A stretch of 30,830 bases of DNA from a virus: positions 1 through 30,830 of the IMG/VR virus record IMGVR_UViG_3300021961_007324. One strand, given 5' to 3'. This document shows, one piece after another, positions 230 through 30,577 of the stretch (position 1 is the stretch's first letter; each line of letters begins with the position of its first letter). Made by a program: the position numbers and the translations under genes. Under the pieces are notes generated by a model, which worked only from the letters and a program-made list of their open reading frames with translations, was not told where the DNA came from and did not search any database.

Positions 230-403
230 ATGGATTTTTATTCAGTGGAATACTGGCAAGAGAATTGGGACACTCTTCTGAACAGAGTAGAAAACGGTGA
301 GACAATAGGTGTAGAGAATATAATAACAGGCGAGAGAGCAGTAATGATACCAGCGGATGATGAACTCATACGCATATACACAGAACACAACGAAGCATCC
401 TGA
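230..403 (+). CDS. Phd/YefM-like antitoxin-type protein, 57 aa
   Basis: ATG 230 to TGA 401-403 encodes 57 residues. The pattern YWQENWDTLLNRVENGETI, then V-x-N-x-I-T-G-E-x-A-V-M-I-P-A-D, matches the Phd/YefM fold: an N-terminal helix-rich stretch, the V-x-x-GE motif, and a central strand ending V-x-I-P. Family members bind DNA as antitoxins and neutralise a partner toxin; no toxin ORF is adjacent, so a free-standing regulator or decoy antitoxin is inferred. The gene sits inside the tRNA array and its stop codon directly abuts tRNA-Ile. All six isoleucine codons are ATA, the codon read by that tRNA. There is no strong Shine-Dalgarno sequence. Confidence 0.75.
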   Translation: MDFYSVEYWQENWDTLLNRVENGETIGVENIITGERAVMIPADDELIRIYTEHNEAS

Positions 404-475
404 GGGAATGTCGCATATTGGTTAATGCGCTCTGCTTATAACGGAGTCAATCGGGTTCAATTCCCGACATTCCTA
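404..475 (+). tRNA. tRNA-Ile (anticodon UAU)
   Basis: Acceptor GGGAATG (404-410) pairs with CATTCCT (468-474; the first pair is G-U), discriminator A475. The anticodon stem CTCTG/CGGAG (one G-U) encloses CTTATAA, giving TAT at positions 34-36, which reads AUA. The T-arm is TCGGG-TTCAATT-CCCGA. All arms sum to 72 bases. The 3' CCA is encoded at 476-478, unlike the two flanking tRNAs. The gene starts immediately after the stop codon of the Phd-like ORF. Confidence 0.9.
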
Positions 476-27032: not shown

Positions 27033-27263
27033 ATGCCGAGAGAATGGAATACTTCTTTTAGGGAACCCTGGAACCCTGTGATAAAGAAGTGCTTAGATGG
27101 AGCTGATCTTCATACTAAGTTGTATCTTGAAAGTCAGGATACCTTTCATCTGAACCAGGCAGATTTGCTAAGGATATACGTCTCAAGATTAAAAGATTGG
27201 ATACATAAGACAGAACCAGAAGGATTTCATAGGGAAGAAAGTAATGAAATGGTGGAACCCTGA
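27033..27263 (+). CDS. Hypothetical protein, 76 aa
   Basis: Soluble, starting MPREWNTSFREPWNPVIKK, with a helical centre (HTKLYLESQDTFHLNQADLLRIYVSRLKDWIHK). Three bases after the preceding stop and overlapping the next gene by 20 bases. No family recognised. Confidence 0.6.
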   Translation: MPREWNTSFREPWNPVIKKCLDGADLHTKLYLESQDTFHLNQADLLRIYVSRLKDWIHKTEPEGFHREESNEMVEP

Positions 27264-30408: not shown

Positions 30409-30472
30409 GGTAAACAAATGTTACGAACCTTAAAGGATCTATTACATTGTCAGAACCCCTGCCGTTTGACCG

Positions 30473-30528
30473 AGACTAGGCTGGGTCACAAAACCGTCTC
30501 TCATATCCTAGTCTGAGGGTGACTAGGA
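30473..30528 (+). promoter_or_regulatory. psbA leader with two mutually exclusive hairpins
   Basis: CCTAGTC (30507-30513) can pair either backward with GACTAGG (30474-30480, 8 bp with the flanking A-T) or forward with GACTAGG (30521-30527, 8 bp with the flanking T-A, loop TGAGGGT). Both pairings cannot form at once. GAGAC (30472-30476) can also pair with GTCTC (30496-30500). This looks like a switching 5' leader; the ligand or trigger is unknown. Confidence 0.45.
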
Positions 30529-30577
30529 AATAGTATCTCCACCATTCCCTGATGGACCTACTAACTTTTTCAAAACA

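Follow-up and report, generated by a model that had tools for sequence, protein, structure and literature searches.

The locus described here raises a simple question: why should a small phage gene spell all of its isoleucines with ATA and end directly against the gene of a tRNA that reads this codon? The DNA analyzed, all of which is referred to as the window, is a cyanophage-type virus record from IMG/VR with a length of 30,830 bases. All features of the locus lie on the plus strand. A tRNA-Pro(UGG) gene at 138–212, recognized by ARAGORN and Rfam, forms the upstream border of the cassette and is followed by a late-promoter-like box, CATAAATA (214–221), which has one mismatch to the T4 late core TATAAATA and ends 8 nt short of the ATG of the ORF. 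The ORF itself (230–403) encodes 57 amino acids and has been assigned to the Phd/YefM fold from its sequence, a profile, and a predicted structure; its six isoleucine codons are all ATA. Codons 42–48 carry an inverted repeat, GCGGATGATGAACTCATACGC (353–373), which includes rare, conserved codons. The gene of the AUA-reading tRNA-Ile(UAU), with its anticodon TAT at 437–439 and its CCA end encoded, occupies 404–478, and a tRNA gene with a CAU anticodon follows at 479–552; both were found by Rfam and by ARAGORN, which called the latter a Met tRNA. The TGA of the ORF is at 401–403 and the very next base, 404, is the first of tRNA-Ile(UAU), so the contact between stop codon and tRNA noticed in a first-pass annotation is borne out by both programs. 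That annotation gave the interval as 230–475, which has the abutment right but leaves out the encoded CCA, the ARAGORN end of the tRNA being 478. Elsewhere in the window, Rfam detected a wcaG RNA (1424–1522) 5′ of a nucleotide-sugar epimerase gene and a PhotoRC-II RNA (30442–30541) 5′ of a psbA-like gene.

Outside the ORF, ATA accounts for 40 of the 598 isoleucine codons (6.7%) of the other ORFs in the window when these are pooled, and it is missing altogether from the three ORFs that follow (604–819, 816–1100, and 1220–1426), as the first-pass annotation had counted. The naive probability of six ATA codons out of six at the window rate is 9e-8. Another small ORF, at 27033–27263, uses ATA for all three of its isoleucines and lies far from any detected tRNA. 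The pattern recurs across cyanophages and is larger than was first reported: in 79 distinct Phd ORFs, 258 of 303 isoleucine codons (85%) are ATA, compared with 340 of 3,828 (8.9%) in phage genes, for which the genes of at least 100 aa from the window and from S-SM2 were taken. This corresponds to an odds ratio of 59; for 11 other amino acids, the ratios of the A-ending codons are 0.5–2.7. ATA prevails in alignment columns I26 (67/77), I28 (36/39), I40 (23/26), I47 (62/65), and I49 (34/41), and at some of the ATA columns other ORFs have Val, Leu, or Met codons instead; the exception is column 17, which is mostly ATT. ORF 230–403 also leans toward purine endings in its 4-fold families (0.73 versus 0.44 in the window), but isoleucine stands far out, and a general A3 or purine-ending bias was rejected as the sole cause. 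The general rule that an ORF matches its codons to the tRNA it abuts was also rejected: where the abutted tRNA is one for Ser, Arg, Val, Thr, Pro, Gly, or Leu, the frequency of the cognate codon in the ORF is close to background, the Ala sample of 8 codons being too small for comparison. Non-Phd ORFs adjoining tRNA-Ile(UAU) have a raised ATA content (42/140), which is, however, far below that of the Phd ORFs.

Relatives come from 19 phage records and from over 500 stretches in IMG/VR. The order of tRNA-Pro(UGG), late-like box, Phd ORF, tRNA-Ile(UAU), and CAU tRNA recurs in marine and freshwater cyanophages, and tRNA-Pro(UGG) is kept about 18–22 nt 5′ of the ORF in most relatives. Within 130 nt past the ORF, the next tRNA in the 79 distinct relatives is Ile(UAU) in 58 and the CAU tRNA in 10; the other 11 have none, and tRNAs of other types do not occur at this distance. 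A reverse search, in which IMG/VR was scanned for the UAU tRNA without regard to the ORF, yielded 113 usable loci, and the Phd ORF was located upstream of the tRNA in 74 of them (71 as first scored and 3 in which the ORF overlaps the first 22 nt of the tRNA). In the freshwater phages DSL-LC03 and DSL-LC02 the cassette order is kept and the Phd proteins are strongly diverged. A MazE-like ORF is inserted in the DSL-LC02 cassette, and such ORFs, which represent a second antitoxin-type family, lie directly 5′ of tRNA-Ile(UAU) both there (L322:733–894) and at locus L141. In some phages, the UAU tRNA at the same spot is built on another tRNA body, one whose variable arm is long and type-II-like (L004:1678–1772, L005 downstream of 1674, L031 downstream of 3174, and L322:901–995), which indicates that the position was kept although the tRNA was replaced. 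An ORF-independent DNA motif 5′ of the tRNA, ATACGNATA, was considered and rejected; it is present at 22 of 63 Phd loci and 0 of 42 loci then classed as Phd-less and, being seen at Phd loci only, is most simply Phd coding sequence.

It had been suggested that the ORF and the tRNA came in together. They are found together in most relatives, but each also occurs alone: S-SSM7, P-SSM7, P-RSM6, S-SCSM1, and S-PM2 have tRNA-Ile(UAU) without the Phd ORF, and the complete phages S-BM3 and S-SCSM2R have the Phd ORF without any detected Ile tRNA. The spacing varies as well. Of the 104 Phd ORFs that neighbor tRNA-Ile(UAU), 61 abut it exactly, 4 overlap it by 1 nt, and 3 overlap it by 22 nt; the remaining 36 stop 1–12 nt short of it, so exact abutment is not required. 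In S-B43 and S-B05, the tRNA shares one base with the stop codon, and every isoleucine of the ORF is ATA. The idea that processing of the tRNA 5′ end would cut the message at the stop codon thus agrees with the geometry of the 61 abutting pairs but not with that of the 36 ORFs that end earlier. In L327, L340, and L429, where the overlap is 22 nt, the stop of the ORF lies in the D-loop of the tRNA gene, and 5′ processing would strip the stop codon from the message. In the record of S-SM2 (L002, NC_015279.1), the deposited tRNA coordinates near 142269–142683 are about 55 nt downstream of the ARAGORN/BLAST placement, a shift by which the abutment of ORF and tRNA-Ile is hidden. The cassette varies in other ways: a 125-aa HNH endonuclease ORF is inserted between tRNA-Ile and the CAU tRNA in L016, and a different, cysteine-rich ORF lies there in L031 and L081, the L031 protein having no Pfam HNH match. 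In L014 the cassette is duplicated, with a second tRNA-Pro, Phd ORF, tRNA-Ile(UAU), and CAU tRNA about 270 nt past the first ORF.

The link between the ORF and the tRNA is graded and not strict. With one sequence taken per 85%-identity cluster, which corrects only partly for relatedness, the ATA fraction is 0.84 in the 19 clusters with tRNA-Ile(UAU) and 0.48 in the 7 without it (p = 0.003). When homologous isoleucine codons were compared with those of the nearest tRNA-carrying relative, likewise with only partial correction, 14 differences favored ATA in the carrier and 3 were in the opposite direction. Mixed isoleucine codons occur in S-BM3 (1/5 ATA), DSL-LC03 (2/4), and S-TIM5 (1/3), and S-SCSM2R, in which no Ile tRNA was detected, has ATA at 2 of 3 positions in its Phd ORF. 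In phages without Ile tRNA, ATA makes up 6–7% of isoleucine codons genome-wide and about half in the Phd ORF (group mean); ATA-richness outlasts the tRNA, as S-BM3 and S-SCSM2R have kept the ORF with ATA above the genome level. The first-pass annotation had proposed that the protein is made efficiently only when the phage tRNA is present. In its strong form, with no protein made unless that tRNA is there, this fails the tests that the annotation itself had named: these two phages carry the ORF without an Ile tRNA, and the codons of S-BM3, DSL-LC03, and S-TIM5 are mixed. Codon compensation on a genome-wide scale was also rejected, the ATA level differing only slightly between phages without (6–7%) and with (8–10%) Ile tRNAs.

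In most bacteria, UAU anticodons are missing and AUA is decoded by a CAU tRNA that carries lysidine (PMC8007984). For the cyanophage S-CREM1 and its host CB0101, the published account (PMC9964418) gives a relative synonymous codon usage of ATA of 0.3 in the host and 0.8 in the phage, and names the UAU tRNA as the phage tRNA type without a counterpart in CB0101. A Cyanobium genome encodes three CAU tRNAs, to one of which the CAU tRNA of the window is 81% identical. In relatives it has been annotated variously as tRNA-Ile2 (Sf-FS3), tRNA-Ile (S-TIM4), and tRNA-Met (others), and its overall identity to approximate reference sequences from E. coli, B. subtilis, and chloroplasts is ambiguous. It is possibly a tRNA-Ile2, that is, a lysidine-CAU reader of AUA, in which case both tRNAs downstream of the Phd ORF would read AUA.

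The Phd/YefM-like label that had been given to the ORF product held up. In profile searches, the window protein hits PHROG 375, annotated as "Phd-like antitoxin" (E of 5e-8); it has no Pfam match itself, but 20 of 27 relatives match PF02604 at E ≤ 1, the best at 3e-6, and the DSL-LC02 homolog is above the Pfam cutoff. VapB46 is the best PDB sequence match of the family profile (9e-4). The AlphaFold2 model of the window protein has a pLDDT of 83, and its top PDB matches in Foldseek are the N-terminal domains of P1 Phd, VapB46, and YefM (probability of 1.00, TM by query of about 0.63–0.68, E of 2e-3 and above). After residue 43, the model contains only a short low-confidence helix (block pLDDT of 64 and 51), so that the putative toxin-binding tail is short and poorly predicted. 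The neighbors of the ORF are tRNAs and ORFs without assigned function, among which Pfam and PADLOC recognized no toxin gene. Considering this tail and the lack of a recognized toxin gene next to the ORF, we regard the product as a Phd-fold protein, a label that the profiles and the predicted structure support well, and as a putative antitoxin. It would most likely act as a DNA-binding antitoxin mimic or repressor against a host toxin-antitoxin system. A cellular origin of the ORF was considered and rejected; a scan of GTDB genomes confirmed no relative.

The best-supported account of these observations, to which we give about an even chance, is that the locus is a conserved cyanophage cassette, probably co-transcribed, in which the isoleucine codons of a solitary Phd-fold ORF have become co-adapted to the adjoining AUA-reading tRNA. 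Host cyanobacteria have no UAU tRNA and seldom use AUA; the phage supplies the UAU tRNA in cis, next to an ORF spelled in AUA. The late-like box would drive a transcript of the Phd ORF, then tRNA-Ile(UAU), then the CAU tRNA, and the protein output would benefit from the tRNA of the same transcript without an absolute need for it. A box with at most one mismatch lies within 30 nt upstream of 46 of the 79 relatives versus 49 of 543 control ORFs (p = 3e-22, uncorrected for relatedness), and in 43 of the 79 the best match ends 8 nt before the ATG, the commonest position. A Shine-Dalgarno-like site was found upstream of only 1 of the 79 relatives and not upstream of ORF 230–403. If the box acts as a T4 late promoter, its transcript would have almost no leader and would continue into the tRNAs. 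Judging from these sequence signals, the Phd ORF is probably co-transcribed with the tRNAs from the box.

Co-adaptation is supported by the isoleucine-specific bias over many columns, by the drop of ATA where tRNA-Ile(UAU) is absent, and by a next tRNA that, where there is one within 130 nt, is always Ile(UAU) or CAU; further support comes from the 74 of 113 loci in the reverse search, from the varied UAU bodies at one spot, and from the background use of cognate codons at other tRNAs. The enrichment of the late box, the figures given for S-CREM1 and CB0101, and the rarity of UAU anticodons in bacteria point in the same direction. It is weakened by the ATA content of the ORF in phages without Ile tRNA, which is well above the genome level, by column 17 and the mixed codons of divergent tRNA carriers, by the raised, though far lower, ATA content of non-Phd ORFs next to tRNA-Ile(UAU), and by the common descent of the 79 ORFs. 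On balance, the data suggest that a small gene and a neighboring AUA tRNA have been selected to work together in many cyanobacterial viruses.

The main rival is an account by history only, according to which a small, weakly expressed, oddly coded ORF entered a tRNA array and was inherited with it as a block, its ATA codons having no functional tie to the tRNA. Inheritance of the cassette is indeed linked, further rare codons (GCG, CTC, CGC, and GTG) are conserved too, and the purine-ending shift of the 4-fold families and the persistence of ATA in phages without Ile tRNAs fit this account. However, the bias is specific to isoleucine, synonymous sites have been free to vary at many other columns while most isoleucine columns stay ATA, and UAU tRNA bodies have been swapped at an unchanged position, with much of the codon match retained; we consider history as the sole cause rather unlikely. 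The same specificity could also mean that the ORF shuns AUU and AUC, the codons of the host tRNA-Ile(GAU), so that its protein is still made if a toxin or nuclease disables that tRNA, AUA being the isoleucine codon that would be left to the phage tRNA. An antitoxin-like ORF written in AUA only, with a tRNA from the same transcript, would then be a counter-defense gene with immunity at the codon level, surviving attack on or depletion of tRNA-Ile(GAU). The predicted antitoxin fold and the MazE-like ORFs against the UAU tRNA in DSL-LC02 and L141 are in agreement with such avoidance, as is the finding that phage tRNAs rescue phages from tRNA-cutting defenses (PMC11555353), but no host toxin that acts on tRNA-Ile is known for this system, the putative toxin-binding tail of the protein is short, and much ATA is kept in phages without the UAU tRNA. 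Avoidance, and with it codon-level immunity, therefore seems improbable to us.

Some of the ATA codons might be fixed by a DNA- or RNA-level element within the ORF, namely the inverted repeat at 353–373, a possible operator or hairpin. Codons 42–48 show synonymous conservation (permutation p = 0.04), and the repeat is intact in 45 of 58 relatives with tRNA-Ile downstream versus 2 of 11 without Ile or CAU tRNA downstream. However, the RNA fold of the repeat region, or across ORF and tRNA, is no better than that of shuffles (z = +1.0), and the repeat accounts for no more than one or two of the ATA codons out of six, which makes it a very unlikely explanation of the bias. The least probable account is the strict switch of the first-pass annotation, in which no protein is made in the absence of the phage tRNA and the message is limited by tRNA 5′ processing at the stop codon. 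The six ATA codons and the abutment in the window agree with it, as do the 68 of 104 relatives in which the ORF abuts or overlaps the tRNA start. It is contradicted by ORFs without any Ile tRNA, by the mixed codons and variable spacing of relatives, and by the presence in the hosts of CAU tRNAs, of which one is expected to read AUA.

The purpose of phage tRNAs is an old open question, and the arguments have usually drawn on averages over whole genomes. In this cassette, position and a strong isoleucine-specific bias, seen in dozens of phages, tie a single tRNA to a single small gene, so that codon compensation, or protection from attack on tRNAs, becomes testable on a single gene of 57 codons. 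The cassette also draws attention to the UAU phage tRNA type, which is absent from most bacteria, and to a family of Phd-fold proteins encoded by solitary genes. Within the open-access literature searched, no description of the cassette or its codon bias was found.

Compared with known systems, the ORF product resembles the N-terminal domain of Phd, YefM, and VapB46 (PF02604, PHROG 375) in its predicted fold and in the succession of its helices and strands, as seen in both sequence and structure matches. Unlike these proteins, it has only 57 aa with a short tail, is encoded without a recognized toxin gene next door, and sits among tRNA genes with its isoleucines spelled AUA. S-CREM1 also carries solitary antitoxin genes (YefM, TacA, and MazE), which have been proposed to blunt host toxin-antitoxin systems; the available part of that account (PMC9964418) connects these genes with neither codon usage nor any tRNA gene. 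The tRNAs that serve phages in codon compensation or in rescue from defense (PMC10264068, PMC11555353) are likewise phage-borne and can supplement or replace host tRNAs in their function. In contrast to those systems, the cyanophage tRNA-Ile(UAU) is tied to one specific ORF, both by its position and by the choice of isoleucine codons.
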